DNA of 64,000 nucleotides from Puniceicoccaceae bacterium K14 (GTDB taxonomy: Bacteria; Verrucomicrobiota; Verrucomicrobiia; Opitutales; Opitutaceae), in assembly GCA_022538095.1 (NCBI GenBank), contig JAKYXN010000002.1:1-64000 (forward strand), in the 5' to 3' direction. Of this stretch, positions 12,972 to 64,000 are shown piece by piece (the stretch's first letter is position 1; every line of letters begins with the position of its first letter). The notes beneath the pieces were generated by a model that saw only the letters and a list, made by a program, of their open reading frames with translations, was not told the origin of the DNA and ran no database searches. A program made the translations under genes and the position numbers.

Positions 12972-12990
12972 TTGGGTTGTTATTTTTTTG

Positions 12991-13020
12991 TTGGTCAGAA
13001 TTGGCCAGATTTGGCCAAAG
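12991..13020. promoter_or_regulatory. Three tandem 10-bp repeats upstream of the alginate lyase
   Basis: TTGGTCAGAA, TTGGCCAGAT and TTGGCCAAAG follow one another without gaps, 20-50 bp before the lyase ATG. A spacing of one helical turn and a TGGCCA palindromic core suggest a cooperative protein-binding site. This is inferred from sequence only. Confidence 0.4.
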
Positions 13021-13369
13021 AGAATGTAGAGAATTTGTTGGTACGGATGGTTTTTCTCTGAAGGTGGGCAGATCGAAATGAGTGTGTGTGGGTGGGGTGG
13101 GGGCTCCGTGGGTGGGAGTGAGGTCCTTGATTTTTTTGAATCGATCAAGGGTTATTTCGAGGGGCAGCGAGGGGTAATGTGGGAAAACTTTGTTCTCACG
13201 TTCACATCATTGCAAAAATTATCTAATTAGTGGTAGATGTGAGTGGATAAATGGTCGAAATGGGCGGCTGAGTGGTTGTGGCATTCGAGAAGTGGAGAGT
13301 GGGTTGTTTGAGTGCTTGGTGAGCATTACAGAAAATCTGATTAGGTTACGTAATGGTTTTTCGTTCTGA

Positions 13370-14036
13370 GATATTTCAATTTCTTATGGGCGCTCTCTAA
13401 TGGACGACGGGAAGAATGGGCATGATGAGTGGGTATCTAGGACGAAGATTCCGTTGCGTGATGAAAAGGGAGAGGTTGAGGGCTGCATTGGAATCGGCCG
13501 CGGTATTACTGAGCAGAAGCGTAAGGAACAGTTGATCGAGAAATACGCAGAAGAGCTCGGGTAGAAGAATGCCCAACTGAAGGCAAGTAATGGCCAGATG
13601 GCCGAAGACTTGCGAATCATTGGAAGTTTGCAGAAGACTTTTTTGCCTGATGCTTATCCTATTTTTTAAATGAAGCTGGTGCTCGTATGATTGATTTCTA
13701 TCGCGGCGTTGGTAACTGCGATTATTCGAGCGATAGAGCGTGATTTAACCTATAAAGAGTCTGATCCTTGTTGTGTTTTTACTGAGATGAATTCGACAGT
13801 TGATGCTGATGCTTCGCTAATGATAAATGCATTTATTGCCAGCCTTGCCCAGGGCGTGGAAAAATGGTGAGGTGAAGGGTTTGAGAGCTAGAGGAGGATT
13901 CGAAGTTGACATAAGTTAGAAGGATTTAACTGTAAGCGATTACTCGATACGTAGAATAGATGATCTGGAAAGTGCCAAGGTAGAAGTGCGGATTGCAAAT
14001 GAAGTCGTGGAAATTACTGCAAATTAGAAATTAAAC
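13370..14036 (+). pseudogene. Decayed PAS-domain gene with SpoIIE-like start
   Basis: From 13370 the frame reads a PAS/PAC C-terminus (DDGKNGHDEWVSRTKIPLRD, then CIGIGRGITEQKRK) and a helical linker. A TAG at 13562-13564 interrupts it, and in the same frame it continues KNAQLKASNGQMAEDLRIIG and SLQKTFLPDAYP before a TAA at 13667-13669. The last part resembles the entry to a PP2C/SpoIIE phosphatase domain (…Q+SLLP…). The N-terminus is missing; the frame opens only after a TGA at 13367. Further fragments (a piece ending [14 protein letters not shown], and another ending VRIANEVVEITAN before 14030) are not placed in a family. It is a dead sensory gene. Confidence 0.65.
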
Positions 14037-15572
14037 ATGAGTTTTAAGATGAAAGCGTTTTTGAGAATTGTTTTTTGTTTTGTGGTTTTGCAGTCGTTCC
14101 TTTGGGGTGAGAAGTCGGAGCGTCCTACTAATGTTATATTGATATTTGCAGATGACCTTGGGATCGGTCTCTTGGGATGCTATGGTCAGGAATTGATTGG
14201 GACGCCGCATATCGACCGCCTCGCATCCGAAGGGATAAAGTATAACAATTACTATGGGGGAGTTTATTGTGCTCCGTCGCGATGGAGCTTGCTAAGTGGA
14301 ATGCATGACGGTCGAGCGGATGCGTGGCGACACACACGTTCAGGACTGCCGATAAAAAGAGATGCTGGCGAAATCACCGAAGAAGAGTTTCAAAAAGGGC
14401 TCGTCGAGATAAAGGAGAGCGCGGTTCCTATCCCGGATCACGAAGTTTTTCTTGGGCAAGTCGCTCAGAAAGCTGGACACAAGACTGCTCAATTCGGAAA
14501 AATCGACAATGGGTTTTCAACATGGATGGAGCGAGTAGAACGCTATGGATGGGATCACCACGTCGGTTATTATGATCACACAAGGGCCCATGGGTTTTAC
14601 CCGCCTTACCTTTGGCGCGACGGAGAGCGTTTTCGTTTGAAGGGGAATAAATTGGCTGATTGCGGTAAGATGAGTGAAAAAGGGGATGAACCAGTCGGAT
14701 CGGGTGGAGAGACTTATTCGCAAAATGTGTTTATCGAAGAGATTCTAAGTTTTATTCGAGAGAACAAAGATGAGTCGTTTTTTATTTATCACCCGACTCA
14801 GTTGCCGCATGGTCCTGTAGCGATTCCAGAACTACATCCGGATTTTGAAGACGATCCATCTCTGTCTCTTGCGGAGAAAAAGTATGCTTCAATGGTCAAG
14901 ATGCTGGACGATCATGTTGGTCTGATCATGCAGGAGTTGAAAGAACAAGGGATTGATGAGAATACGGCAGTATTTTTCACTTCTGACAATGGACATGAGC
15001 TGTATTACGGCCCAAAGAGTAGTTATGCAAAGTGGTTACCCAACGGAGACAAAGCTAATTTGACGGACAAGAAATGGCGTACTTCCGAGGCTGGGGATGT
15101 CTTTGATGGATCCGACGGGCGTGCTGGACTTAAGCGTTCAGGCTATCAAGGAGGTATGCAATGTCCAATGATTGTTCGTTGGCCGGGGCGAATTGAGGCC
15201 GGTATCGAAACAGATCATTTCTCGGCTCATTTTGATTTTATGGCGACCCTAGCAGATATGTTGGGAGTTGATCTTCCAGAAGGGAAAGACGGTATTTCTT
15301 ATTTGCCTACCTTACTTGGAAAGAAGCAGAAAGAGAAGCATGAGTATGTCGTAGTGAACAATCACTTTAGGCGTATGGGTGGAGCTGCTTTGATAACGCG
15401 TGAAGGTTGGAAACTAGTGGAAGTCGAACGAAAGCGAGATGAGTTCCAGTTGTATGACTTGCGACGCGATAATGAAGAGCGGGTTGACTTGGCTTCGAAA
15501 TATCCGAAAAAGGTAGAAAAATTGAAAGCGATCCTGCTGCGAGAGCTTGAGTCCGCGCGACCAGACTTATAA
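14037..15572 (+). CDS. Sulfatase (S1-type, formylglycine-dependent)
   Basis: A 511-residue secreted sulfatase. The signal peptide (ends FLWGE) is followed by VILIFADDLGIG, whose aspartates bind Ca. The formylglycine signature CAPSRWSLLSG has its cysteine at residue 78. FFTSDNGHELYYGPK near residue 320 supplies further metal ligands. It would hydrolyse sulfate esters on a glycan in the periplasm after conversion of Cys78 to formylglycine; no maturase gene is present in the window. It is followed after 9 bp by a redoxin gene, so the two may form a transcript. Its exact substrate cannot be read from sequence. Confidence 0.93.
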   Translation: MSFKMKAFLRIVFCFVVLQSFLWGEKSERPTNVILIFADDLGIGLLGCYGQELIGTPHIDRLASEGIKYNNYYGGVYCAPSRWSLLSGMHDGRADAWRHTRSGLPIKRDAGEITEEEFQKGLVEIKESAVPIPDHEVFLGQVAQKAGHKTAQFGKIDNGFSTWMERVERYGWDHHVGYYDHTRAHGFYPPYLWRDGERFRLKGNKLADCGKMSEKGDEPVGSGGETYSQNVFIEEILSFIRENKDESFFIYHPTQLPHGPVAIPELHPDFEDDPSLSLAEKKYASMVKMLDDHVGLIMQELKEQGIDENTAVFFTSDNGHELYYGPKSSYAKWLPNGDKANLTDKKWRTSEAGDVFDGSDGRAGLKRSGYQGGMQCPMIVRWPGRIEAGIETDHFSAHFDFMATLADMLGVDLPEGKDGISYLPTLLGKKQKEKHEYVVVNNHFRRMGGAALITREGWKLVEVERKRDEFQLYDLRRDNEERVDLASKYPKKVEKLKAILLRELESARPDL

Positions 15573-24999: not shown

Positions 25000-26463
25000 A
25001 TGAAGATGACTCGTTTGTATTTTCGTACCGTCGTTGTGGTCATGAGTTTAGTCTCGTGCGTGGTCATGAGGGGTGAAAAGGCCGCTCAGCCAAACATTAT
25101 ATACATTCTCGCGGATGATCTCGGCTATGGAGATTTGAGCATCAATGGTCAGATACATTTTGATACGCCGAACATAGATCGAATGGCAGCTGAAGGGATG
25201 TTATTTACGCAGCATTATTCCGGTAGTACGGTGTGTGCCCCGTCCCGCTCGAGCCTGATGACCGGACAGCATACTGGGCATACTCCAGTGCGCGGTAATT
25301 TAGAAATAATGCCCGAGGGTCAGCACCCTCTGCCTGCTGATACTGTGACCTTGCCGCGTGTTCTCCGTGAGGCGGGCTACGTAACCGGGGCGTTTGGTAA
25401 ATGGGGATTGGGCTATCCTGGTTCGGAAGGTGACCCTATGGAGCATTTCGACCGTTTTTATGGGTTTAATTGCCAGCGCTTGGGTCACCATTATTATCCG
25501 TTTCATCTGTGGGACGACGACGAAAAGGTGGTGCTTGAGGAAAACGCTGGAACGGCGAAAGGAATATATGCCCCAAGCTTGATTCATGACGAGACTCTTC
25601 AGTTCATAAAGGATAACAAAGACAGCCCGTTTTTTTGCTATGTCGCCTCAATCATTCCACATGCTGAGTTGATTGCTCCCGAGGAGTATATGGAAAAATT
25701 TAGGGGAAAGATCGAAACTGGAGCCGCTTTCACAGGTGTTGATGAAGGTGAGGAACTGAGACTTGGAAAGTATCAATCTCAAGAGGAGCCTCATGTGGCG
25801 TTTGCTGCAATGGTGGCTTTGTTGGATGATCAAGTGGGTGAAATCTTAGCGACCCTTGACGAGCTCGGCATAGCTGAAAACACGCTTGTTGTTTTTACAT
25901 CCGACAACGGACCTCACGAAGAAGGGGGAGCAGATCCAAGTTTTTTCAACAGCAATGCAGCGTTTCGCGGTCTCAAGCGTGATTTGTACGAAGGCGGAAT
26001 TCGCGTTCCGATGGTTGCTCGTTGGGAGGGAACAATTGATGCTAGCTCGAATTCGGATCACGTATCCGCATTTTGGGATATGATGCCGACTTTTGCGGAG
26101 ATGGCCGGCGTGGCTAGCCCAGAGGCTATAAACGGAATTTCTATGTTGCCGACCTTATTGGGCCGCTCGGCTGAGCAAGAGGAGCATAACTATTTGTATT
26201 GGGAATTTCATGAGCTTGGTGGGCGGAAAGCGCTCAGGAAGGGAAAGTGGAAGTTAGTTAAATATAATGTTTTGAGTAATCCAGATGCACCGGCCCAATT
26301 GCATAATTTGGACAAAGATCCTGGGGAAAGTCATGATTTAGCATCGGCTCGGCCGAAAGTTTATAAGCGATTAATGGAGCTGATGGAAAGCGCTCGCGTA
26401 CCCTCCGATGTATTTACTTTCTCGAGCGTTCAGTTCGAAGGAGGGCCAGGAGACCAAAAATAA
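25000..26463 (+). CDS. Arylsulfatase (S1-type), probable lipoprotein
   Basis: A 487-residue sulfatase. The leader ends in LVSC, a plausible lipobox (Cys20). IIYILADDLGYGD supplies Ca-binding aspartates and CAPSRSSLMTG is the formylglycine signature with Cys79. VFTSDNGPHEEGG near residue 300 and the C-terminal LYWEFHELGG/ALRKGKWKLV block are typical of arylsulfatase A-like enzymes. It should remove sulfate from glycans at the cell envelope. It is the first gene rightward from the LacI-type operator region and is followed after 118 bp by an MFS transporter, possibly exporting or importing the freed product. Confidence 0.93.
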   Translation: MKMTRLYFRTVVVVMSLVSCVVMRGEKAAQPNIIYILADDLGYGDLSINGQIHFDTPNIDRMAAEGMLFTQHYSGSTVCAPSRSSLMTGQHTGHTPVRGNLEIMPEGQHPLPADTVTLPRVLREAGYVTGAFGKWGLGYPGSEGDPMEHFDRFYGFNCQRLGHHYYPFHLWDDDEKVVLEENAGTAKGIYAPSLIHDETLQFIKDNKDSPFFCYVASIIPHAELIAPEEYMEKFRGKIETGAAFTGVDEGEELRLGKYQSQEEPHVAFAAMVALLDDQVGEILATLDELGIAENTLVVFTSDNGPHEEGGADPSFFNSNAAFRGLKRDLYEGGIRVPMVARWEGTIDASSNSDHVSAFWDMMPTFAEMAGVASPEAINGISMLPTLLGRSAEQEEHNYLYWEFHELGGRKALRKGKWKLVKYNVLSNPDAPAQLHNLDKDPGESHDLASARPKVYKRLMELMESARVPSDVFTFSSVQFEGGPGDQK

Positions 26464-31497: not shown

Positions 31498-33108
31498 CTA
31501 CTGATCGTATCCTTCTTGGTTTGGATACTTTTCTTTGTAGTGATGTATCCGGTTTGACCAGGTGCGAACCTCGAATGGTTTCACATTGTGTTGCTCTGCC
31601 CAAAGATCCCATGATTCCTTGAGTTGGGAAACCTTTTGGGGATTGGATGAGGCGAGGTCAATTTGTTCGAAGGGATCATTTGAAAGATTGTATAATTCCC
31701 ACGGTTCGGCGATGTGACGTGAGACGAGCTTCCACTCGTCCTTTATTATTGCCCTGCTTGTTTGATGTTCGAAGAAAAAGGTCCGCTTTTCGATTTCATC
31801 ATTCCAAAATGTGGGTACGAGGCTGTGCCCATGAGGAGTTGGAATCGGGCTGCCATTGAAGCTGTCAACTTGGGTTATTCCAATTGCATCTAATATTGTT
31901 GGGACTAAGTCGGTAATATGTGACTGTGCGTTTCGAAGTTCTCCTGTGTAGTTCGCAAGCTTAGCAGGCCAGTGGACGATAAGCGGTGAACTAATTCCCC
32001 CATTGAGCGTCCATTTTTTGTAGCTTCGATAAGGTGTGTTACTCAGGTCAGCAGCAAGCTGAGAAATAAACCCGCCTTCTCGGGTTGCTCCATTGTCACT
32101 TAGATAGAATATGAGCGTATTTTCCAGTTGTCCCTTTTCTTGGAGAGTGTCTATGAGGAGGCCGATCCCGTCGTCCATTATTTCAATCATGGCTGCATAG
32201 GTTGCCATTTCTAGAATCCATTCAGTTTTTTGTTCTTTGGATAGATCTTCCCACATTGGGCGACCGCCATCGTAAGCTTGAGGATGTTTGGGTAGTGTTT
32301 TGTTTTGCGGGATGATGCCAATTTCCTGCATTCTTTTGAATCGGTTCTGTCTCAAAACGTCGTAGCCTGCTTGATATCTTTTCTTGCAACGTTCAATACG
32401 ATTTTCTGGAGCTTGGAGAGGACGATGGGGCGCATAGTGGGCTGCGTATAGAAACATTGGAGACTTAGAAAAATCGTGTTCCTCGACGTACCCTTTAGCT
32501 GCTTGCGAAATTGCATCCGTGTAATACCAGTCATCGGATAACTCTTCTTTGGGTATAAATGACTCGCCATTCAATATGTCATTTCCAGGTTGGTATGATG
32601 CTCCCCCTGTGAGTTTTCCGAAAAATTTCTCGAATCCTCGATCCGTTGGCCATGAGCCATTGGACTTGGCGGTGCCATTTTTGTTGGAGTAGTTTCCGTC
32701 AACAGTAAGATGCCATTTCCCGGCCATATAGGTCTTGTATCCATTTGTTTGGAGTGTTTCTGCAATTGTTGGGTAGGATTTTGAAAGTTGACCTCGGTAT
32801 CCGTCACGATGCTCGTCTACGGCTGTCATCCAACCCATTTCGACGCTGTGTTGATGGCGGCCTGTTAAGAGGGACGCTCGACTAGGACAGCATCGCCCTG
32901 TGTTCTTAAATTGAGTATATCTAAGGCCACTTTGAGCTAACTGATCTAGGTTGGGTGTTTCGATCTCGCTCCCCCACGAACCAAGGTCTGAGTAGCCCAT
33001 GTCGTCTGCCATGATAACGACAATATTGGGCTGCTTTGCCATTAGCTCGTTTGATGGGAAGGCTAGGATAATAAGTGTGTTTATAGAAAGTGTCAGAATT
33101 CGGATCAT
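31498..33108 (-). CDS. Arylsulfatase (S1-type)
   Basis: A 536-residue secreted sulfatase. After a signal peptide, IVVIMADDMGYSDLGSW provides Ca ligands. The formylglycine motif is CCPSRASLLTG, with Cys73 as the residue to be modified and a second Cys in the variable position. KWHLTVDG and FYLSDNGATREGG are further active-site motifs. The C-terminal TSRAIIKDEWKLVSR is standard. Its ATG overlaps the stop of the GH30 gene by 4 bp (33105-33108), so the two are translationally coupled. Together they probably attack one sulfated glycan, with GH30 cutting the chain and the sulfatase removing ester groups. Confidence 0.94.
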   Translation of the reverse strand: MIRILTLSINTLIILAFPSNELMAKQPNIVVIMADDMGYSDLGSWGSEIETPNLDQLAQSGLRYTQFKNTGRCCPSRASLLTGRHQHSVEMGWMTAVDEHRDGYRGQLSKSYPTIAETLQTNGYKTYMAGKWHLTVDGNYSNKNGTAKSNGSWPTDRGFEKFFGKLTGGASYQPGNDILNGESFIPKEELSDDWYYTDAISQAAKGYVEEHDFSKSPMFLYAAHYAPHRPLQAPENRIERCKKRYQAGYDVLRQNRFKRMQEIGIIPQNKTLPKHPQAYDGGRPMWEDLSKEQKTEWILEMATYAAMIEIMDDGIGLLIDTLQEKGQLENTLIFYLSDNGATREGGFISQLAADLSNTPYRSYKKWTLNGGISSPLIVHWPAKLANYTGELRNAQSHITDLVPTILDAIGITQVDSFNGSPIPTPHGHSLVPTFWNDEIEKRTFFFEHQTSRAIIKDEWKLVSRHIAEPWELYNLSNDPFEQIDLASSNPQKVSQLKESWDLWAEQHNVKPFEVRTWSNRIHHYKEKYPNQEGYDQ

Positions 33109-34706
33109 AGCTTAGATGCTTCTACAATTGTTACAATGGATTGGGGTGGGAGGGTAATTGTGTTTTGAATAAGGAGCGAATTGCGTAAACTAAGATTGAA
33201 TTCGCTATCGGTTAGGTAGGTTTTTCGTTTGGTGGAAGAATTCTCTTTAAGAATTGGAAGGCTAACTTCGATTGGGCTCTTCGATAGATTTGAAAGGACA
33301 CATATCATTTCAGATTTGTCTGGGGAAATAAATGCGCTCACGAGGAGAACGGTTTCGTTTTGCTCGTTGTAAACCGGAGGATGAGTTGCTTCGATTCTTT
33401 GGTAACCAGGTCGAATGAATCGACTGTAGTTTCCGAGTGAGAACAGAGATTTGGTTGCCTGATGTGTTCCGCCACTGGCGAGGGCTTTATCCTTTTCGGG
33501 TAAGAGGCGTAGGAGAATGTAGCGGTTTAAGTTATTGTTTTCGTAGGCCATGGAAGTCCAGAAAGACCAGGAAGCGACGTTTGCGTGTGTTAGATCATAG
33601 TGAATAATTTTTGCAATGAACTGAGCAACTTCCCACCCATTGCTCGGCTTATTGTGCTCAATACGATCAAGGGCGATGAGACTGTATTCAGTTTGGTGTA
33701 GCTGGACGCCGAGTTTCTGTGCGAGTGCCAATGATTGCGACCGTGATTCGACTATCGATTTTTCACTTTGGTTTGTCCAGTAGCTGTGGACTGCGAAGCG
33801 TTTGCCGACTCTTTCAATGTTGCCGAGATAGGTCTCGCTTGAAGGGTCAAAGAATGCTCGCAATTGATGGCTATGCGTATCTTGGCCTTTTGTCTTATAT
33901 AGGTTTCGCCAATCTGCGGCTTCGGGGAAGAGGATTTTAGTATCAAGGTTTCTTTCGATGAGTTCTTTGTTAAGCGCTCGGACGACCTTGAAAATTTCTT
34001 CGTTGGTCCAGGGTGATCCTTCTTGTTTGGTGGTTTTCCACTCGTATTGCGGCTCGTTGATTGGGCTGATTTTGTCGAAGCAGATTCCCTCGTTTGCGAA
34101 ATGTGAGACTACATCGCATAGAAAAGAAGCAAACAGAGGATAGTCCTTTTTATTGAGGTTTGAAATGTATCCACCGTATCCATGCGCAATACCGTTGCGA
34201 GTCATTGAAATCGGAGGGCTATTGGAAAATGCGATCAGCGATTCGACCCCGTAGTCCCTTGCCCTTTTAAAAAACCACTGTTGGCCGTTTTGCTTCGACC
34301 AGTCGTAGCTACCATCGGCATTTAGGAAGCCTTCTGTTCTGCGTGTGTGGTTTTTAATTTGGCTCGAGTCGCCCTGTGCAGCACTGCCAGCGCCTATGTT
34401 AAACCGCCAAATGGATAGGCCGATGCCTTTAGGGCTCCCTGTTGAGTCAAGCTCCTTGCTAAATAGCCTTTCCGCCATTTTCGATTTTTCTTCATGGCTC
34501 CAATGTTTACCAACGAAGTTGACATTCCAAGCGTCAGAGGCTCCGAAGCCTTCAATTGTTTGGTGTCGAATATCAGGGCTTATCGTCAGTGGAATGGGTT
34601 GGGATCCGTTTACAAAGAGTGAAGGAAATGACAGGAAAATCGTTAAAGCTGAGGCTCGAATAATCTGAAAATAATGAGGTATAAAAACGCTAGGGAATTT
34701 TTTCAT
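33105..34706 (-). CDS. GH30 glycoside hydrolase, endo-beta-1,6-galactanase-like
   Basis: A 533-residue secreted enzyme. I use the ATG at 34706, which gives a signal peptide (ALTIFLSFPSLFVNG); the frame stays open to an ATG at 34802. The (beta/alpha)8 barrel begins QTIEGFGASDAWNVNF. Acid/base Glu218 lies in SPINEPQYEW and nucleophile Glu340 in LHQTEYSL, numbered from this start. The C-terminal beta-domain ends ITLPPQSIVTIVEA. Motif spelling is close to the endo-beta-1,6-galactanase group of GH30, but neighbouring subfamilies act on other beta-linked glycans. The gene overlaps the sulfatase downstream by 4 bp. Confidence 0.9.
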   Translation of the reverse strand: MKKFPSVFIPHYFQIIRASALTIFLSFPSLFVNGSQPIPLTISPDIRHQTIEGFGASDAWNVNFVGKHWSHEEKSKMAERLFSKELDSTGSPKGIGLSIWRFNIGAGSAAQGDSSQIKNHTRRTEGFLNADGSYDWSKQNGQQWFFKRARDYGVESLIAFSNSPPISMTRNGIAHGYGGYISNLNKKDYPLFASFLCDVVSHFANEGICFDKISPINEPQYEWKTTKQEGSPWTNEEIFKVVRALNKELIERNLDTKILFPEAADWRNLYKTKGQDTHSHQLRAFFDPSSETYLGNIERVGKRFAVHSYWTNQSEKSIVESRSQSLALAQKLGVQLHQTEYSLIALDRIEHNKPSNGWEVAQFIAKIIHYDLTHANVASWSFWTSMAYENNNLNRYILLRLLPEKDKALASGGTHQATKSLFSLGNYSRFIRPGYQRIEATHPPVYNEQNETVLLVSAFISPDKSEMICVLSNLSKSPIEVSLPILKENSSTKRKTYLTDSEFNLSLRNSLLIQNTITLPPQSIVTIVEASKL

Positions 34707-34931
34707 TAAAATATTTGTGGATACGTAAATATATTGGATTACGAACATCCAAAATAGCCCGAAAGGCTTGGTATAGTCGATCATTATACTCAATACTTGC
34801 ACATGCGCTTGGGTGTTTAAATAGGAGATAAGCGTTCGAGTTTTTGATGATGGATTTGAGCGATTATCCTGTGGTTCAGAATTCTTAGAGCATCGCAGAT
34901 ATTAAATTCTGTAGGATAACGATCTAGAAAT

Positions 34932-37959: not shown

Positions 37960-40900
37960 TTAAAAAGTGACAGCTAGTGGAAAGTGTTTTTGTAGGCACT
38001 CCTTGAGAATTGTGATCGTCATTGGCTTGGCTATGAAGCCGTTCATGCCGACCTCTACGCATTCTTTACGACATTGGGGAGTTACGTTTGCTGTTACCGC
38101 GACGATAGGTATGTCAGAATTAAGCTCTCGAATTGCGCGTGCTGTTTGCAATCCATTGAGCTTGTCCATGTTTAAATCCATGAATACGATGTCATACTCT
38201 TTCGAAGTCAACAGTTCGATCCCTTGGTGGCCGTCAGCCGCTTGGTCTGACTGAATACCTAAGGAATGTAGAATTTTAATGAAGATTTCTCGGTTGAGTT
38301 CGTTGTCTTCGACGATAAGAGCATTTAAATCATGGTCTATTTTGTCAGAGGGATTTGAGGTATCGCCGATGCCCATATTTTCATCGAAGCTTGCAAGTGT
38401 GATTTCAAACCAGAAAGTAGAGCCTTTGTTCGGTTGGCTTTCGACCCCAATTTTGCCTCCCATTATTTCGACTAAACTTTTGCATATGCTTAGTCCAAGT
38501 CCAGTTCCGCCGTATTTTCGCGTTGTAGAGCTATCACTCTGAGTGAAGGGCGCGAAGATTTTTGATATTGTTTGAGCGTCTATGCCAATACCTTCGTCGA
38601 TTACTTCGAACCGCAGTTTTGTTCGCTTTTTATTTTTATCCAAAATTTGGGCATTAACGGTCACTTGACCAGTTTCGGTGAATTTAATCGCGTTGCCTAT
38701 CAAGTTCATGAGTACTTGTCGCAAGCGGGTTGGGTCTCCGACTAGCCATATTTGCTCTGAGATTGGATTGCTTTTGCTATCGATAATTTTTTCAGAGGAG
38801 GAAACATTTGGCTTTGGGAGAACGGAGCTTCTCGATTGAATGATCAGATCTTGCAGATTGAAGGGTACATTCTCTAGTTCAATGGATTCTGCTTCGAGTT
38901 TTGAGAAGTCAAGTATATCGCCTATGATCGCCAAGAGGCTTTGGCCAGCGAGATTGATTGGTTCCAAGCTTTCGCGAACCCGAGTGTCAATTTCCGATCC
39001 GAGTAGCAGCTCTGAGTATCCAATTATTGAATTCAAAGGTGTTCGAATCTCATGAGACATCATGGCGAGGAATTCGCTTTTTGCCCTGCTAGCGGTTTCT
39101 GCTTTTTCTGCGAGATTTGCTAGTTTCCTAGCGGTTTCTTTGGTCTGGCATAAGAGAATTTCGTTTTCGTCGCATTTGTCTCGAAGACTAAGTTCGAGCA
39201 GTTTCTGGCTGTGAATATTCTGGGTGGTTCCCACCATTTTGAGAGCTTTACCTTCGGGGTCTCTTGAGATAACTTCCCCTAAATCCTTAACCCATACCCA
39301 ATTACCGTCGTGAGCACGATAGCGGTGCTCGGAAACCCAGCGTTTTGTTTTCCCATCTAGGTGGTCTTGTAATCCCTTGCGCACTCTTTTGATATCCTCG
39401 GGATGGGTCGCATTGATCCAACCTTTGAAAGTGTTTGGAATGTTCATCTGGTCGTATCCAAGAATACATTCGAATGATCCCTGACTGGCCGAATAGGTAA
39501 GAAGTTTATCTAGGTTCAGATCCCAATCCCACCACACAAGATGGGAAACAGTTACCGCCATTTCCAATCGGTTTTGGGCCTGCTTAACATCGGTGATGTC
39601 GGTAAAGGTAACAATCACTCCACTGGTAATGTTGGCCTCTAAATTAAAGGGAAACATGCGCACCATGAGTGACTTGTCGTCTTGAGTCTTGGCTTCGAAC
39701 GAGATTGGCTCTTTTTGCTCGAGAACTTTACCTACGCGGCGAAGGAATTTTTTGTGATTGCCGAGGGCATAGGCAATATCTTCTAGCGGTCGGCCTATAT
39801 CTTCCGGCAGTAGATTAAAGATCGAAGTAACTGCTTCATTGTATTTTCTAATTCGAAGGCCAGAGTCCAAATATATGATACCAATATCGACCAAGCTAGA
39901 AAGGAGTCGATCGTGGTCTTCGTTGAGGTGTTGCAATTCGCAGTTTTTAAGCTCGAATTCCGAGTTTACGGAAAAGAGTTCTTCGTTGACCGAATGTAAT
40001 TCTTCGTTGGTGCTTTGTAGTTCTTCGTTGGAAGCGAGTAATTCTTCGTTGGCAGCTTGTAACTCTTCATTGCTAGTTTGTGCCTGTTCGATGGCAGCTT
40101 GCATGTTCTCACGACTCGCTTGCAGCTCTAGTTCTAGTTCTGCAACCCTCTTACTCAAGCATTCGCCCGACTCATATGATTCCTCTGGCGTTCCATCGGA
40201 AAGGGGTTCACGATTTTCTGAATCCTGTGGTGCCCTGGCGGTTCTTAGTAAAGAAACGAAGTAGTGGGGTTCCTGCGACTTTGTTGGCAAGGGGTCGACT
40301 CGTAAGTCAACGAGAGAGCGCGTGTCAGAGTTGTCGTCTCGGACACCTCTCATTGTGAATGGACCATCTTTGGTTCTCGAACGTTGCAAGCAGGTGCTGA
40401 GCGCTAGATGCAAATCGCCTGCTAGTTGATCGAAAAGAGAGTTAGCAGCTCTGCCAGAAACCGGTTTGAGGTAGGGATTGGGGTCTCCTACGTAGTGTAG
40501 GACCTGGCCCTGCTCGTCGATGATGAATCCGTCTCCAACTTTTGAGGATATGATCGTATCGTAATCGTGCAAGAGTTGGGGGTCGATAGAGACTCCTTTT
40601 TTCGATTCCCATTTGCGCAACACCGGCTGGGTTGCGTGTGGCGATAGGCTAGAAGGTAGGCCGATTACAGAAATATTTTTATTTTTCCGAAAAATGCGGC
40701 CGCGCGAATCGAGAGTGTCTAATCCGAGCTTATTCGTATCAGGATTTTCACTCGCACCCAAAGTGAGGCATCCTCCTTTTCTGAGTCCGTAGAGGAGCAT
40801 TGAAATTGCTCGATCCTGCGCATTGGGTTCAAGATAAATGAGGAGATTGCGACAAGTGACTAAGTCGAGTCGCGTGAAGGGGGGATCGGCTAGTAAATTG

Positions 40901-42063
40901 TGAGAGGCGAATACAATTTTTGATCGTAGATAATTGGATACGCGATAGGAACCTCCTTTGAGAGTAAAGTATTTGTCCCTCAAATTTTGAGGAACTGGTT
41001 TAAGATCTTCGCTTGTGTAAATGCCTTCAGATGCAGCGGCGAGCGAACCTTGGTGCAAATCTGTAGCGAATACACTTATATCCCCGTTGTATTCGATTTT
41101 TTCAGCCTCTTCCAAAAGTAACATGGCCAGAGAATAGACTTCTTGCCCGGTTGCGCATCCGGCGACCCAGGCTCGGAATTCTGTGGGTTTAGCTTGGCTG
41201 AGCAATCCGGGGATGGTTTCCTTTTTAAGGAATTCCCACATGTAATCGTCGCGATAGAAGGAGCTGACGCCGATAAGTAAGTCTCGAAATAGCTCGTCGA
41301 TCTCCTCTGGATTGTCGGCAAGCATCTTTCCGTACTCGACGATGGAGGCGTTGTTTGTCTTTTCGATTCTGCGTTGAATGCGTCGAAGTACAGTCGAATC
41401 CTTGTAATTCTCAATGTTCAGGCCGTAGCTACGTTTCAGTGCATTTGTGACCAGTTGGATGCCGGTGGCTGTTGTTGAGTTTGGGTGTGAAATTGGGGTG
41501 GGTTTGAAATCCGGGTTTATTAAAACTTCTGACATTTGGTCAGGACGAAGAATATGATCGTAGGCTCCGCTTACGATAACGCTGCGAGGCATCCCATCGA
41601 ACTCAGCTGAGTCCGGATCCTGCACAAATACTGTTCCACCTGCTGCCTTGATTTTTTGACAACCTTTCATTCCGTCCGAGCCGGTACCAGAAAGGATGAT
41701 CCCGTGGGAGCTCTCGCCAAATTGTTCTGCGAGCGAGTTGAAAAACACATCAACTGGTAGCGATGGCGTCCCTGTGGATGCTTCTAGCTGAAGTCTGTTA
41801 GCGATGACGCGTAGGACTTTTCGTGGAGGTATCAGGTAGACGTGGTTAGGATAGATTTTTTCTCCGTCTTCTGCGGAGGAAATTGTCATCTTGGTGTGAC
41901 GGGCTAGGAGTTCTGCCATCAGACTTTTGAAGTCAGGCGAGAGGTGTTGGATGACAACGTAGGAAATGCCCAAGTTATCATCAACCGCATGGAAAAACGA
42001 CTCGAGCGCTTTTAGGCCACCCGCTGATGCACCGATTCCGATAATTTTGGGCTTAGTCGGCAT
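37960..42063 (-). CDS. CheB-CheR-PAS-histidine kinase-receiver fusion
   Basis: A single 1367-residue cytoplasmic signalling protein. The CheB methylesterase domain (about 1-190) has Ser13 in GASAGG, His40 in QHLSP and Asp130 in GSDGMKG. The CheR methyltransferase domain (about 200-460) shows [14 protein letters not shown] and [15 protein letters not shown]-like segment (about 495-600) and a coiled coil built from NEEL heptads (about 640-705) precede PAS domains (about 715-960). A histidine kinase carries His1004 in SHEIRTP and ATP-binding motifs NAIKFT and [10 protein letters not shown] receiver has phospho-acceptor Asp1296 in VFMDLNM. Such fusions occur in environmental bacteria; no chemoreceptor lies near it, so it probably senses through its PAS domains. 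Confidence 0.94.
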
Positions 42064-57070: not shown

Positions 57071-58300
57071 TTAATAATCGCAGATTTGAAGGGCTTTGAT
57101 TCTTTGACTCAAAGAATCATCCTTCTCTTCTAAGTAAGCGAGATTTCGGTCGATGAGCGCATTGCGTTGTTTGACGCAGGCTGCGGTGTAAAGAGGGTCA
57201 GCGGGTGTGTTGGTAACGTAGTCTACAAGCTTTTCGACGGTCGTTGTGGCAACGTGGAGCCTTGTATCGCTAGATGCGTAGTAAATGAAGACTTCGTTTC
57301 GATCGTTGACAATTGTACCGTTAGTGAAGGCGACATTCATGACATCGCCAACCAGCTCTTCTCCTTCAGGGGCGATGAAAAATCCCCCTGGAGAATGTAT
57401 CTGATTTGTGGGGTCGTTTAGATCGGTCATGAATGCATAGAGGACGTAACGCAGGCCGCTCGCGCAACCTCGGACACCATGAGCTATGTGAAGCCAGCCT
57501 TTATCTGTTTTTATTGGTGCGTCGCCTTGTCCGTTCTTTGATTCTTTAATTGTGTGATAGGCTCGTTGATCGATGATACTCTCTTTTTCGATAATAGCCT
57601 GGGTCATGTCATGGCAAAGTCCCCATCCAATACCTCCTCCAGAACCGGCGTCTATGAAGCCATCTTGTGGGCGTGTGTAGAGAGCGTATTTGCCGTCTAC
57701 GAACTCTGGATGAAGAACGACGTTCCGTTGCTGTGGAGAGGGCGTCTTTAGGTCAGGAAGTCGTTCCCAGGTTTTGAGATCTTTGGTGCGAGTAATCCCG
57801 CATTGGGCGACTGCGGATGAGAGATCAGAGGTAGAGGCGTTCGGATCTTTGCGTTCGGTGCAGAAGAGGCCGTAGATCCAACCATCTTCGTGTTTCGTCA
57901 GTCGCATGTCGTAGACATTCGTATCCGGAATCTCGGTTTCCGGCATAGTGACTGGATGATTCCAGAATCTAAAGTTATCTACCCCATTTGGACTTTCGGC
58001 GATAGCGAAAAAGGATTTACGATCATTCCCTTCTACGCGTGCGCATAGATAGTACTTGCCGTCGAGGAAAAGAGCTCCTGCGTTGAATACGCAGTGAACA
58101 CCAATTCGTTCCATAAGGTGTGGATTACTTTCTGGGTCTAAATCATAGGACCAAAATAGTGGAGCGTGTTTTTCGGTGAGTACAGGATACGAGTGTCGAT
58201 GAAAAATGCCGTTGCCTGGGTGGATTGGCGGATTCTCTCGATTGAGAAGAGTCTCTTGGTCTTCAATGAGTTGAATGAGGCGTTTTTGGTAGGTGTTCAT
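57071..58300 (-). CDS. GH130 4-O-beta-D-mannosyl-D-glucose phosphorylase
   Basis: A 409-residue cytoplasmic enzyme. The sequence follows the GH130 subfamily 1 mannosylglucose phosphorylases: [75 protein letters not shown] and [14 protein letters not shown]. Aspartates in DTNVYD (acid region) and the basic residues that hold phosphate are retained. It would phosphorolyse mannosyl-glucose to mannose 1-phosphate and glucose. In the bacterial mannan pathway this acts after an epimerase that is not in the window. Its gene is convergent with GH1. Confidence 0.93.
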
Positions 58301-58387: not shown

Positions 58388-60946
58388 CTACTGGACTTCG
58401 CTTAATATCTCTAAAAGATCGACACGATTGATTTGCTGGGCTCGCTCGGTAGGCAAGTAGCCATCGCTATCGCGAATGTCTTTACGAGCGCCTTTTTGCA
58501 GGATTAGCGTGACGAGTTCCGGATTGCCGGATTGTATGGCGTAATGGAGGCTCGTCCCTCCTTGCTTTTCTTTGTAATTGGGGTCTGCGCCGTCGTTTAG
58601 GAGTTGGGTCGCCAATTTGATATCGTTGACTTTGACCGCACGAAGCAGTTGTTTGTTTTGCTCAAGGGAGTAGGCGTCTTCCTGTGATTCGCTTGGGTTC
58701 TGAACCTTCGCAAAGTTCTCAAGTACGGAGACGGAATTAAGATAGCCTTCTTGCTTAGCGTATTCAATTGGTTTCATTCCGGAATTGTCTTCGATTTCAG
58801 GATCTGCCCCTAGTTCGAGCAATAGTTGAAGGGCAACTTCGTATTGTTCTATGACTGGAGAGCGACCAGGAAGCTCTTTGTATCCCCAGTGACCAATCTG
58901 GCAAACGTAGTGCAGAGCGGTACGCCCAAGATTGTCTTGTACGTTTACATCTGCCCCGGCCTCGATTAAGACTTGGAGCTTTTCGGCTGGTAAGTTTGTA
59001 TATTTGCCTCCAGGAGAATGTAAGTTGCTTGCGACTACGTGCAGAGCAGTCTGGGAATTATTGGCGGCGTACTTTGCATCGGCGCCATTTTCTAGGAGTA
59101 TCTTAAAAATTGCGTTGCTTGCGGGGGAATGGCTCGCTCCTGCGAAAAAGAGAGCGGTCCAACCTCGGTTGTCTGTTTTGTTCGCTTCTGCTCCGATTTC
59201 GAGCAAGGTACGGACAGTTTGAATATTCCCTCCGCGACAAGCATTGTGAAGTGGGGTTTGGCCATTTAGCGTATCCGGAAAATCTATATCCGCACCACGA
59301 CTTGCCAGATGTCGAACATATGATTCATGACCGTTGCTAGAAGCGATATGAAGGGGAGTCTCTCCATGAGCATCGATTGGATTTGGATTTGCTCCACCCT
59401 CTATGAGGGGATCGATGGCTTCGATGTGGCCTGGCCATGCTGAGCGATGAAGAGGAGCGAAACCTCCGACATTGGGCATGTCCGGGTTGTATCCTTCGGC
59501 GATGAGCTGGCGAATCTTTTCTGGTTGGTTGGCCCGAGCAGCGTAGTGAAGTTGTTCGTCCTGATTGCCAGATTCTTTTTCGATCGAGTATAGGGGAGCT
59601 TCGTTGTTCAGTGATATGTTTGGTGGGGCGAGAGGGGCGATCAGATTTAGTTTGCCGTCTAACCGCCCATAAAGTGTCACTATACCGCGAGCAGGAACGG
59701 TTATAGTATCTTTTACAGTTACTATTGAATTTCGGAAGCTTTCGTTCTGGTCGCTGGTGTAGAGGTTAAAGCGAGCTTTCTTTTGATTGGAGCCGACGAT
59801 CTTGAGCGTTGTTTCTAATGGGGCGTTTGTCTCGTTTAGCAAGACAACGGTTAGCGTTTCCTCTTCCGCGTGGGAAAAGGAGCTGACTTTTAGATTCTCT
59901 TGCGAAGTAAAGGTATGAATACGATGCGATCCCGGGCGAGCGTAACGCGCGTAATGCTTCATAGCGATCGACTTGGGTGCGTGTCTTCCAGCGGTCATTA
60001 GGCTTCCGATGTCAGGGACTCGAGAGTTCAATTGCCAGTAAAGGTATCCGCTTACGTTTCCGTTAACGAGTGTACGATGGATGTCAGCAGCCACAGCCAT
60101 TGCTCCATCCCAATTCTGAGGATGCCCACTGTTTTCAGTCATCCATAGTTTACGATTGTACTGCTCTGGGAGTGTCCCCATTCGTTTCCAGTTATAGTCT
60201 CCGGACCATCCGTGAGTAGCTAGAAGGAAAGGAAATTTGCTCGTTTCTTCATCGAGCATTACTGTATCAATGTATTGGCGTACACGGTCATACCAACCCA
60301 TCTCCTCAGGGATCACGATTTTTGTATTTATGTTTTCTTGTTGGAAGACTTTGCTAAACGTCCGAAAGGTTTCGCGCAGCTGTATGGGGCTGAAGAGGCA
60401 GGATCCATAGGGCTCAATAAACATTAGTTCGTTCTGAATAGATAAAGCGCTTATCTTGATACCGTCGCTTTTTTCAATGGCTCGCGCATTTTTGATCATC
60501 CAATGGGCATACTTTTCTCGATAATCAGGGTTTAGGTAGCCACCATACAATTCCGAGAGATTGGTTTTGTATTCTCCAGGCGGGGTCCAGCTCGTTGCGA
60601 GGAATGTAGAGATTTCACGTGCTTTGAATTCCTTCAAAATCATTCGAGCGTATTCAGACTTATCGATGAGCTTCTGATCGATCTCTAGATCTGAATTGAC
60701 GACTGCGATGTCTTTGAGAGGGGCCCTGAGTATCGAAAGACCGAGATCGTAGACTGCTAAGTCGTAGAACATGGGGTCCCGGTAGGCAGGCATTTGATCG
60801 TAGGCGATGAAACACGCACCGAAGCCATCGATTTCCTGCTTTTTGTCTAAGAGGTTTAGGTAGACAGTTTCTTCAGATTTCAGACACTGTAGCGACAATG
60901 TCGCTACGATTATAAATAGAAATAGTCGGCTAAGTTTGCGATTCAT
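58388..60946 (-). CDS. Secreted GH30 glycosidase fused to an ankyrin-repeat array
   Basis: An 852-residue secreted protein. The signal peptide (ends SLQCLKSEE) and a GH30 barrel/beta-domain (about 25-445) come first: QEIDGFGACFIAYDQM, acid/base Glu173 in LSIQNELMF and nucleophile Glu271 in WMTENSGHPQNWDG. The tryptophan-rich LYWQLNS resembles glucuronoxylanase-like members. From about 463 to 852 lie ten to eleven ankyrin repeats with G-x-T-P/A-L-H starts, for example ETPLHIASSNGHESYVRHL and RTALHYVCQIGHWGY, some with 10-16 residue insertions. The two parts are in one frame without stop or frameshift. Ankyrin repeats normally bind proteins, so this may be a surface-tethered or complex-forming hydrolase. 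Confidence 0.93.
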   Translation of the reverse strand: MNRKLSRLFLFIIVATLSLQCLKSEETVYLNLLDKKQEIDGFGACFIAYDQMPAYRDPMFYDLAVYDLGLSILRAPLKDIAVVNSDLEIDQKLIDKSEYARMILKEFKAREISTFLATSWTPPGEYKTNLSELYGGYLNPDYREKYAHWMIKNARAIEKSDGIKISALSIQNELMFIEPYGSCLFSPIQLRETFRTFSKVFQQENINTKIVIPEEMGWYDRVRQYIDTVMLDEETSKFPFLLATHGWSGDYNWKRMGTLPEQYNRKLWMTENSGHPQNWDGAMAVAADIHRTLVNGNVSGYLYWQLNSRVPDIGSLMTAGRHAPKSIAMKHYARYARPGSHRIHTFTSQENLKVSSFSHAEEETLTVVLLNETNAPLETTLKIVGSNQKKARFNLYTSDQNESFRNSIVTVKDTITVPARGIVTLYGRLDGKLNLIAPLAPPNISLNNEAPLYSIEKESGNQDEQLHYAARANQPEKIRQLIAEGYNPDMPNVGGFAPLHRSAWPGHIEAIDPLIEGGANPNPIDAHGETPLHIASSNGHESYVRHLASRGADIDFPDTLNGQTPLHNACRGGNIQTVRTLLEIGAEANKTDNRGWTALFFAGASHSPASNAIFKILLENGADAKYAANNSQTALHVVASNLHSPGGKYTNLPAEKLQVLIEAGADVNVQDNLGRTALHYVCQIGHWGYKELPGRSPVIEQYEVALQLLLELGADPEIEDNSGMKPIEYAKQEGYLNSVSVLENFAKVQNPSESQEDAYSLEQNKQLLRAVKVNDIKLATQLLNDGADPNYKEKQGGTSLHYAIQSGNPELVTLILQKGARKDIRDSDGYLPTERAQQINRVDLLEILSEVQ

Positions 60947-61143: not shown

Positions 61144-61922
61144 TCAATTCGCTACAAGTACGTTATCGCCAGATTTAATCTTGAAAGTAACACCGTGTTC
61201 GGTCGCTTCGGTAAAAGAGATGGGGAGGTCAACCGGAATGGCCTGATCGTTTAAGTAAATTGGTTCTTCGTTTGCGTGAATCGAATTTGTGACGAAGTTG
61301 CTTGGGGTTTGGATGGTAGCCTCAGTGTTGGCAGGAACTGAAATCGAAAGTGTAAAGGTCTCTTCTTCTAATTTTCAGTCTGAGCGGATTTTGACGTAGT
61401 TATTGTCTAAATACGAATACGAGAGTCTTCCTCAAATTTGAGGCTGTATGAAAAAATGTTTGCAGCTAGGATTGTCTGAGTCGGGTCGAATCCATTTAGC
61501 ATCCCAGTCCTGCGAGTCCAGGAAGCCTACATGAAAGGTTGCGATTTTGCTCCAAGATGATTCTCGCTTTAGATTGTCTTTGACTTTAACTTTCCAGAAG
61601 TACCGTTGATTGGAGGTGAGATCCGGGCCATCGTAAGGGATGAAGATGGATTGAGAGGAGTCGTTGGCTATGTAGCTCCATGTTGATGTCTTCGCTGAGT
61701 CGAGCTTTTCTGGACCTTCGGCTGCTCGTATTTCGTATCCTGTTTGTTGGATACTTTTTTCATTTGAAATAATTATCCAACCGAAATGTGGAGCCTCTGT
61801 ACTGAGGCCAATTGGAGCTTTTTGGCTTTCGCACCTAATTTGACCGACTCGTAAATCGGTAAATAGAGAAATGGGAAAGAGGAAAAAAAGGAAAAGATAG
61901 AACGATGAAAATTATAGCGCAT
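61144..61922 (-). pseudogene. GH78 alpha-L-rhamnosidase, internally deleted
   Basis: A decayed gene reading from 61922 to 61144. A signal-peptide-like start (MRYNFHRSIFSFFSSFPF) is in a different frame from the mature part (IRCESQKAPIGLSTEAPHFG, then GYEIRAAEG, and IPYDGPDLTSNQRYFWKVKV), which is the GH78 N-terminal domain. At about 61435 a TGA interrupts it. In the same frame the sequence continues with the GH78 C-terminal domain (LDNNYVKIRSD-stop-KLEEETFTLSISVPANTEA), where a TGA stands at the position of the conserved Trp, and ends at 61144. The whole (alpha/alpha)6 catalytic barrel, roughly 600 residues, is missing. It has one frameshift, two nonsense codons and a large deletion. Confidence 0.85.
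61430..61443. repeat. 14-bp palindrome at the rhamnosidase deletion point
   Basis: CCTCAAATTTGAGG is a perfect palindrome sitting exactly where the GH78 N-domain sequence gives way to the C-domain. It may be a scar or cause of the deletion. The TGA in the palindrome on the coding strand supplies the first premature stop. Confidence 0.6.
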
Positions 61923-62125: not shown

Positions 62126-64000
62126 TTACACGGGCGAGGGGAGCTGCTTTATCTCAATTGAGCCACCATTTGGGTAAGTTTTTTTAGAACCGTCGATGAG
62201 GGTTATAGTCGTAGGGATTCCGATTGGAGATTCTACGTTTATCTTAAAACCACTTGTTGGATTTCGAGTCCATGAAACTGAAATTGTGCCATGTGGGGAA
62301 GGAATTTGGCCATTGGCTGATTCGGTAGAGGAGTACTTTGGAGCTATCCCTATCTCTTTCCAGCCAGCTGAAACTGGGTAGACACCGAGAACGGTTCTGA
62401 GAAATTCTATGACGATCCAACTGCTCCAGGCGTGGCAGTCGCTTCGAGTGTTGATTTCATTTTCTGGCCAAGTGGTGAACCCGTCTTCAAGAAGTTTGTA
62501 CCAAGGGGCCAAGACGTCAGAAAAGAATCTCTCATAATTATCTAGCTTTAGAAGTGCTTGGGCTAGGTAGAATCTGTGAAAGAGAGAAACTTTGGCAAGG
62601 TCGGGATCGTCGAGGAGTCGATTCCGCAAAAGAGCTTTTTGTTCGTCGTTCGCTGCGCCGGCGAGGAGCGCTACGATTTGAGTGTGCTGTGAGAATTGGT
62701 CATCGTCTCTCGTAGGACCTTCCATGAAGTATCCGCGATCGGCTGACCAAGATTTTTGCTGGAGCGTTTCGACAAGGTCCTTTCGCAGGAGGTCCCATTG
62801 AAGTGACTCGTTTGGTCGTTTAGCGGCTTCGAATAGTTTTGATGCAGTCTCTAAGGCGATGGCGTAGAGAGCCGTCATGTAAGTGGATCCGGTCCCTGCA
62901 TCTACTGCTGGCGGTACTCCCCTTGTCCATTTACGCATCCAATCTATCCAAGGCCAACCTGACATGGTGCCGACAAAGCCACTCGAGGCAATGCGGTCTC
63001 GGAAATATGAAAGGACGAAATTGGTTGCGGTGAGATGTTCGTTGATGAAATCGATTTCCGCTTCTCCGTAGTGATTCCAATAGTCGCCAAGCATTAGTAT
63101 CCAGTGGAGTGAGAAGGCTGGCATTTCTTGTCGCCGTATCGATGGCTCACGGCTTGATATCAGGCCATTTGATGAGAGGGAGCGACTGAATAGGGCAATG
63201 CATCGTTTGCCGAGCTGGCCATTTCCAGAGAGCCAGTAGCTGGCGAGAGCCTGAATGCGGGTGTCGGCTGTGTAGTTGAGTTGCTCGTAGTAAGGGCAAT
63301 CTTCATACGTTTCGTGAGCGCATAGTTCGAGAGTACGAAGGCTGTTGTCCCAGAGCTCTTCTATATTGTCGGCTGCACAGTCAAAATTAGCTGTGAATGT
63401 TTGGGAGAAAGTGGTGTAACGATGGGCAGCGGACTTGAGAGTTACAGGAGTGTCTCCTGCTTCGATAATGATTTTAACGAAACTGAAAGGCCGCCAGTGG
63501 AAGGGTTCAAAGTAGTACTGATCGCCGGGTAGGATAATCGTATCACGATAGCCTTCTGGAGTGAGCTCGGAAAAGTCGCCGCGTGGGCGTCCCTTTTTCC
63601 ATTCTCCAGATTTTGTTTTTCTGAGTGCTTCGGCGTATACGATATGTACCGTTCGACCAGCCCCACCTTCGAATTCGAATTCAAGATAGCTGGTAACTAG
63701 TGATCCTGGATTGAGCCAAATTTCACCAAACTGGCCGGCATCGACAGTCCATGGTAAGTTACGGGGTTGTCTATTTTCTAGAATCTGATGAAAACTGCGT
63801 GGCGATTCTACGAGCGGTAGAATGTCTGCGGGGAAAAGGCAGTGAACGGGTTTAACTCCAAATTCGTCTTGTATCGGTGGCTTACCGAGGGGAACGGCCT
63901 GATGCCAATTTGCGTCATCGAACGATATGCTTTGCCAATTTCTAGGAGTTTTTCGGCCATCTATATAATCGGTGTATCCAAGCCATTCCACGGCTAGGTC
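62126..64000 (-). CDS. GH78-like alpha-L-rhamnosidase, N-terminus beyond window
   Basis: A reading frame open to base 64000 (625 codons), so the N-terminus lies outside. The visible part has an accessory beta-sandwich (TVDAGQFGEIWLNPGSLVTS; DTIILPGDQYYFEPFHWRPF), an (alpha/alpha)6 barrel (HETYEDCPYYEQLNYTADTR, with the acidic residues of the GH78 active site; GTMSGWPWIDWMRKW; TTWPENEINTRSDCHAWSSW) and a C-terminal beta-domain (NGQIPSPHGTISVSWTRNP). It should cleave alpha-L-rhamnosides. It sits next to a dead GH78 copy and in the same region as rhaA. A GTG at 63991 is not the true start. Confidence 0.9.
   Translation of the reverse strand, partial: DLAVEWLGYTDYIDGRKTPRNWQSISFDDANWHQAVPLGKPPIQDEFGVKPVHCLFPADILPLVESPRSFHQILENRQPRNLPWTVDAGQFGEIWLNPGSLVTSYLEFEFEGGAGRTVHIVYAEALRKTKSGEWKKGRPRGDFSELTPEGYRDTIILPGDQYYFEPFHWRPFSFVKIIIEAGDTPVTLKSAAHRYTTFSQTFTANFDCAADNIEELWDNSLRTLELCAHETYEDCPYYEQLNYTADTRIQALASYWLSGNGQLGKRCIALFSRSLSSNGLISSREPSIRRQEMPAFSLHWILMLGDYWNHYGEAEIDFINEHLTATNFVLSYFRDRIASSGFVGTMSGWPWIDWMRKWTRGVPPAVDAGTGSTYMTALYAIALETASKLFEAAKRPNESLQWDLLRKDLVETLQQKSWSADRGYFMEGPTRDDDQFSQHTQIVALLAGAANDEQKALLRNRLLDDPDLAKVSLFHRFYLAQALLKLDNYERFFSDVLAPWYKLLEDGFTTWPENEINTRSDCHAWSSWIVIEFLRTVLGVYPVSAGWKEIGIAPKYSSTESANGQIPSPHGTISVSWTRNPTSGFKINVESPIGIPTTITLIDGSKKTYPNGGSIEIKQLPSPV

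Follow-up and report, generated by a model that had tools for sequence, protein, structure and literature searches.

The modules usually attached to bacterial glycosidases bind carbohydrate or anchor the enzyme to the cell. In the GH30 glycosidases (CAZy clan GH-A), which hydrolyse beta-glycosides by a retaining mechanism, a (beta/alpha)8 barrel is fused to a side beta-sandwich, and the two catalytic glutamates sit at the ends of strands 4 and 7. Solved xylanase-like members include AcXbh30A (a GH30_10 xylobiohydrolase, 7n6h/7n6o), EcXynA (1nof), BsXynC (3gtn/3kl0), CtXyn30A (4ckq) and CpXyn30A (4fmv). Ankyrin repeats have been described on none of the solved GH30 structures matched in this study. 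Ankyrin proteins that accompany an enzyme are known from a different setting, the katA-ank arrangement of other bacteria, in which a small ankyrin gene immediately follows one for catalase. A close comparison, and an experimental precedent, is AnkB of Pseudomonas aeruginosa, which, as a later paper cites the original work, is a periplasmic ankyrin protein that KatB requires to be fully active (Howell 2000, cited in PMC7567364).

The window analysed here, 64,000 nucleotides of contig JAKYXN010000002.1 from Puniceicoccaceae bacterium K14, a verrucomicrobium of marine type, contains a gene in which a GH30 enzyme and an ankyrin array are one protein. A single 852-codon open reading frame with an ATG start and no internal stop occupies 58388-60946 on the minus strand, exactly where the first-pass annotation of this DNA had placed it. 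From N- to C-terminus the product has a predicted export signal, a complete GH30 (barrel and side sandwich), a linker and about 11 ankyrin repeats (Table 1). The AF2 full-length model (mean pLDDT 88.7, pTM 0.80) has the same layout: the GH30 barrel and sandwich, then a short linker, then roughly 11 helix pairs of the ankyrin type. As in AnkB, the ankyrin repeats would be exported to the periplasm and would serve an enzyme; AnkB, in the account cited above, differs in being a separate protein that serves a catalase, is thought to supply heme and is not a glycosidase.

Table 1. Features of the GH30-ankyrin locus and of other ankyrin genes in the lineage. Plain coordinates are positions in the window; the others carry a locus number.
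Feature	Coordinates	Strand	Basis or remark
GH30-ankyrin fusion gene, 852 aa	58388..60946	minus	ORF, Pfam, AF2 model
Sec-type signal peptide, residues 1-24	60875..60946	minus	predicted by eye from sequence and alignment
GH30 catalytic module (barrel and beta-sandwich), residues about 25-428	59663..60874	minus	phmmer, profile, AF2, Foldseek
E173 codon, acid/base glutamate (SIQNEL)	60428..60430	minus	27-sequence alignment; aligned with NE of solved GH30s
E271 codon, nucleophile glutamate (WMTENSG)	60134..60136	minus	27-sequence alignment; aligned with solved GH30s
Linker, residues 429-462	59561..59662	minus	alignment and AF2 model
Ankyrin repeats 1-8, residues 463-749; long loops in repeats 6 and 7	58700..59560	minus	Pfam, AF2 model
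Array break and ankyrin repeats 9-11, residues 750-852	58391..58699	minus	alignment, AF2 model
GH130-like phosphorylase/hydrolase, downstream of fusion gene, same strand	57071..58300	minus	Pfam
GH78 rhamnosidase gene remnant	61264..61839	minus	tblastn against intact P. mobilis GH78
GH78-type alpha-L-rhamnosidase, 776 aa, runs past window end	62126..64000	minus	Pfam
Ankyrin-TonB_C family, ~760-780 aa	L009:3919-6240, L010:4246-6576, L011:4908-7199, L107:1666-3939, L109:1093-3405		apparently exported
ThuA and C-terminal ankyrins	L110:1916-3319, L111:1096-2679	minus, plus	P. mobilis and congener
Ankyrin stretch between N-terminal domain and beta-lactamase-fold serine hydrolase (PF00144)	L013:3397-5781	plus	
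N-terminal ankyrins, squalene-cyclase-like stretch, planctomycete cytochrome domain (PSCyt1)	L106:2369-4762	plus	P. mobilis
Small ankyrin gene directly downstream of catalase gene (katA-ank)	L014:5517-5999	plus	K14 genome

Pfam placed Glyco_hydro_30C above its cut-off, with the GH30/GH59 barrel models sub-threshold. Despite this, sequence comparison makes the presence of a GH30 barrel certain. This is because phmmer with the fusion protein matched the GH30 xylanase 1nof at 5e-23, a profile built from three sequences matched GH30 crystal structures (best AcXbh30A, E = 3e-40; the GH30_8 enzymes 1nof, 4ckq, 4fmv and 3gtn at 1e-34 to 3e-30), and E173 and E271 are invariant in 27 of 27 aligned relatives, both aligning with the solved GH30s. 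Two hallmarks of the family, the barrel with its fused sandwich and the pair of catalytic glutamates, were thus found. In Foldseek the GH30 half of the model matched GH30 crystal structures with target TM-scores mostly of 0.75-0.87. Fold, module limits and catalytic glutamates are shared with the five solved enzymes named above (profile E 3e-40 to 2e-30, target TM-score 0.80-0.86), to which the K14 module is only ~20% identical.

The enzyme is best read as belonging to the xylanase-like branch of GH30 and as hydrolysing a beta-glycan. Glucuronoxylan specificity in GH30_8 is conferred by a conserved prokaryotic arginine, which binds the glucuronate carboxylate and is absent from some GH30_8 enzymes (PMC8347883). 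The EcXynA region holding it, WYIRRSYG, aligned with WQLNSRVP of the fusion protein, and the alignment gave no clear counterpart common to the three fusion proteins described below, a nearby arginine being present in two and absent in PLM2.Bin11. The closest match by overall profile score was AcXbh30A of GH30_10, a subfamily of xylobiohydrolases that act at the non-reducing end.

The C-terminal half consists of tandem 33-residue helix-loop-helix repeats, the defining form of an ankyrin array. Pfam Ank_2 matched the fusion protein at E = 1e-51, and the AF2 model predicts about 11 helix-pair repeats over residues 463-850 with one break near 750. This break, before the last three repeats, is helical and poorly conserved. 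Foldseek matched the remainder of the model beyond the GH30 to ankyrin proteins. At the other end of the protein, the N-terminus MNRKLSRLFLFIIVATLSLQCLKS/EE reads by eye as a Sec signal peptide, and its putative cleavage site LKS/EE lines up with LQA/EN in P. mobilis and LPA/ET in PLM2.Bin11, these sites also being read by eye. A lipoprotein reading was rejected on inspection, the residues preceding C20 (SLQ) not fitting a lipobox. The earlier description of a GH30 with a signal peptide and both catalytic glutamates, running in frame into ten or more ankyrin repeats, therefore holds, with the signal peptide as a prediction.

The same full-length fusion is present in the cultured type strain Pelagicoccus mobilis KCTC 13126 (Pelagicoccaceae, Verrucomicrobiota; G126, contig 92), as an 860-codon frame from an upstream TTG. 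Its GH30 is 58% and its ankyrin region 56% identical to K14, or 56% each when the halves were searched separately. A third genus, represented by the MAG PLM2.Bin11 (G041, contig 71), has a diverged fusion with 36% BLAST identity in the GH30 half and ankyrins recognised by Pfam; the break in its array falls where that of K14 does. Module order is constant in all three proteins. The K14 genome was assembled in 358 contigs, which might favour an assembly error or frameshift having united two genes. That reading is ruled out, since the join recurs in the separate P. mobilis assembly, with a similar join in PLM2.Bin11. The frame is also uninterrupted, and G+C across the GH30, linker and ankyrin regions (46.5, 47.1 and 49.7%) reveals no base-composition break at the join, as had been noted on first inspection.

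The architecture is rare, being found in three genera across all searches made. A GH30 match at 1e-10 was obtained in 49 genomes among 282 relatives. Ankyrins were on only three GH30s, and the 33 other GH30 relatives examined (the loci being distinct relatives from the 282-genome set plus two genomes of other families of the phylum) were without them; other long GH30 frames of relatives never carried ankyrins, having GH43, CBM9/golvesin domains or nothing recognised instead. No further GH30-ankyrin member was detected in 373 genomes of the order and 388 of the phylum at the thresholds used. Nor did these sets or the 282 relatives, which overlap, yield an ankyrin-free GH30 orthologue beside a separate ankyrin gene, the arrangement that the first-pass annotation had named as evidence against a fusion. 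Absence elsewhere from a contig scan is weak evidence, as only two short peptide patterns were used.

Maximum-likelihood analysis of 36 GH30 domains grouped the three ankyrin-bearing members in one clade (support 100/98), and the simplest history suggested by these sequences is one fusion event within it. By BLAST, a common origin of the PLM2.Bin11 and K14 ankyrin halves was inseparable from general ankyrin similarity, the former being no nearer to K14 ankyrins than unrelated ankyrin proteins are. The argument for shared origin therefore comes solely from GH30 monophyly and module order, and the divergence of the PLM2.Bin11 ankyrins means that a common ligand in all three genera does not follow.

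The GH30 and ankyrin halves have diverged alike between K14 and P. mobilis. With dN of 0.33 and 0.40, respectively, and saturated dS, both halves are under purifying selection. In designed ankyrins, positions 2, 3, 5, 13, 14 and 33 are randomised for binding. We compared these positions with the exposed back (18, 21, 22, 25 and 26). When the seven regular repeats were taken together, K14 and P. mobilis were identical at 27 of 41 positions of the binding set and at 9 of 35 on the back (Fisher p = 6e-4, for one sequence pair and positions that are not fully independent within a repeat); a first pass over all eleven repeat anchors gave 38/65 against 12/55. Because the binding positions were kept and the back was not, the face probably still binds something, and the pattern points to a conserved ligand for the concave ankyrin face. 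The only other pair tried, of ThuA-ankyrin proteins, had the same bias (20/24 against 8/20), so the pattern could be a general ankyrin tendency.

The fusion gene belongs to a glycan locus linked to rhamnose. Upstream of it, a gap of 1.18 kb holds the GH78 remnant, which contains stops and in which pieces corresponding to P. mobilis GH78 residues 1-117 and about 766-843 abut with the middle missing. The K14 locus also encodes the L-rhamnose isomerase RhaA, a GH1, a sialate-type acetylesterase, a TonB-dependent receptor, a LacI regulator, and MFS and sodium-solute (SSF) transporters. In P. mobilis, an intact GH78 (by Pfam) of the remnant's type lies 29 bases behind the fusion gene, and the neighbourhood also has a GH4, additional genes for GH30 and GH78, related transporters and a TonB-dependent receptor. 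Marine Puniceicoccaceae are documented to feed on glycans that contain rhamnose (PMC8857213). Taking that diet together with the locus content, we infer that the GH30 most likely acts on a xylan-like chain or on a beta-linked portion of a glycan bearing rhamnose.

Exported ankyrin proteins, several of them fused to enzymes, are common in the K14 genome and its relatives, export being judged by eye from their N-termini. K14 encodes three ankyrin-TonB_C proteins, an exported protein in which only ankyrins are recognised, a serine hydrolase that includes an ankyrin repeat, and a katA-ank pair. The ankyrin-TonB_C proteins (several copies per genome; Pfam TonB_C confirmed for L009) resemble the fusion in apparent export, long ankyrin arrays and presence in the same genomes, but have a C-terminal TonB-like domain in place of an enzyme; as partners for the fusion they are a possibility only. 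The ThuA-ankyrin proteins likewise have an enzyme-type domain followed by C-terminal ankyrins with a conserved face, in the same lineage, but with ThuA for GH30 and four repeats found as against about 11. The surprise expressed in the first-pass annotation, which knew of no such enzyme, is thus only partly warranted. No enzyme of this kind was found in the open-access literature searched, which covered ankyrins alongside GH30, xylanases, CAZymes and Verrucomicrobia and lacks most subscription journals, and the architecture is apparently new there, though built of known parts; with ThuA-ankyrin, ankyrin-TonB_C and ankyrin/serine-hydrolase proteins in the lineage, it is not an isolated oddity.

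Our preferred reading, held with somewhat better than even confidence, is that the product hydrolyses a beta-glycan after export, probably in the periplasm, while its ankyrin face docks it to a partner protein. The signal peptide would take the enzyme through the inner membrane, a rhamnose-containing glycan would enter by a TonB-dependent receptor, and the GH30 module would cut its beta-linked backbone or an oligosaccharide of it. The partner gripped by the ankyrin face might be a neighbouring enzyme, an uptake protein of the outer membrane or a further exported protein with ankyrins, and such docking would put cutting, GH78 de-rhamnosylation and uptake close together. Of the two roles first suggested for the fusion, anchorage in a periplasmic complex would fit best, and nothing found favours a host or algal target over a partner in the cell's own envelope.

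Counting against docking to a partner, the conserved face might instead contact the protein's own GH30 module. The main rival is an intramolecular or architectural role, in which the array packs on and stabilises the GH30, gives form to its active-site cleft or covers it, or makes the enzyme dimerise, with no separate partner. Packing on its own enzyme would also yield a selectively conserved face, and the constant module order and a linker of just ~34 residues agree with it. However, the linker has 32% identity to that of P. mobilis and pLDDT falls to 47 at its end, which suggests a flexible join, and the 33 related GH30s manage without ankyrins; we regard this role as rather unlikely. Distinctly less credit is due to an enzyme released outside the cell, whose ankyrins would bind an algal or other host protein and target it to that surface. 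Ankyrins of symbionts are often host-directed, the window has alginate-lyase and sulfatase genes typical of users of algal glycans, and secretion past the outer membrane is possible. Yet the protein has only a Sec-type N-terminus, its C-terminus being ankyrin repeats with no recognised outer-membrane sorting element, ankyrins are common on the lineage's own envelope proteins, and three genera from different sources would need one common foreign target.

That the ankyrin half is a functionless, passive leftover of a chance fusion would suit its rare and patchy distribution, the fusion being missing from two Pelagicoccus relatives that do have ankyrin proteins. We consider this very improbable given the lack of stops and frameshifts, the dN of 0.40 beside saturated dS, and a face-biased conservation that persists with identity down to 56%. 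What weight is left over beyond docking to a partner and its rivals belongs to roles we have not thought of.

A glycosidase with a large conserved protein-binding module suggests that degradation machinery may be physically assembled in the verrucomicrobial envelope, and the presence of the same fusion in a cultured type strain makes the idea directly testable. A bolder proposal, which we think has only a small chance of being correct, is that exported ankyrin arrays form a general envelope docking code in Opitutales-type Verrucomicrobiota, with enzymes (GH30, ThuA-type, serine hydrolase) and TonB-like ankyrin proteins forming glycan-degrading complexes. If true, this code would be functionally comparable to cohesin-dockerin, but ankyrin-built.

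Elsewhere in the window, a second GH30-type gene at 33105-34802 on the minus strand (Glyco_hydr_30_2, E 1e-105) adjoins a sulfatase gene; more sulfatases, together with an alginate lyase that bears ricin-type lectin repeats, are encoded at 11589-15572, 25000-26463 and 31498-33108. A single 1367-aa open reading frame at 37960-42063 on the minus strand combines CheB, CheR, PAS, histidine kinase and receiver domains.
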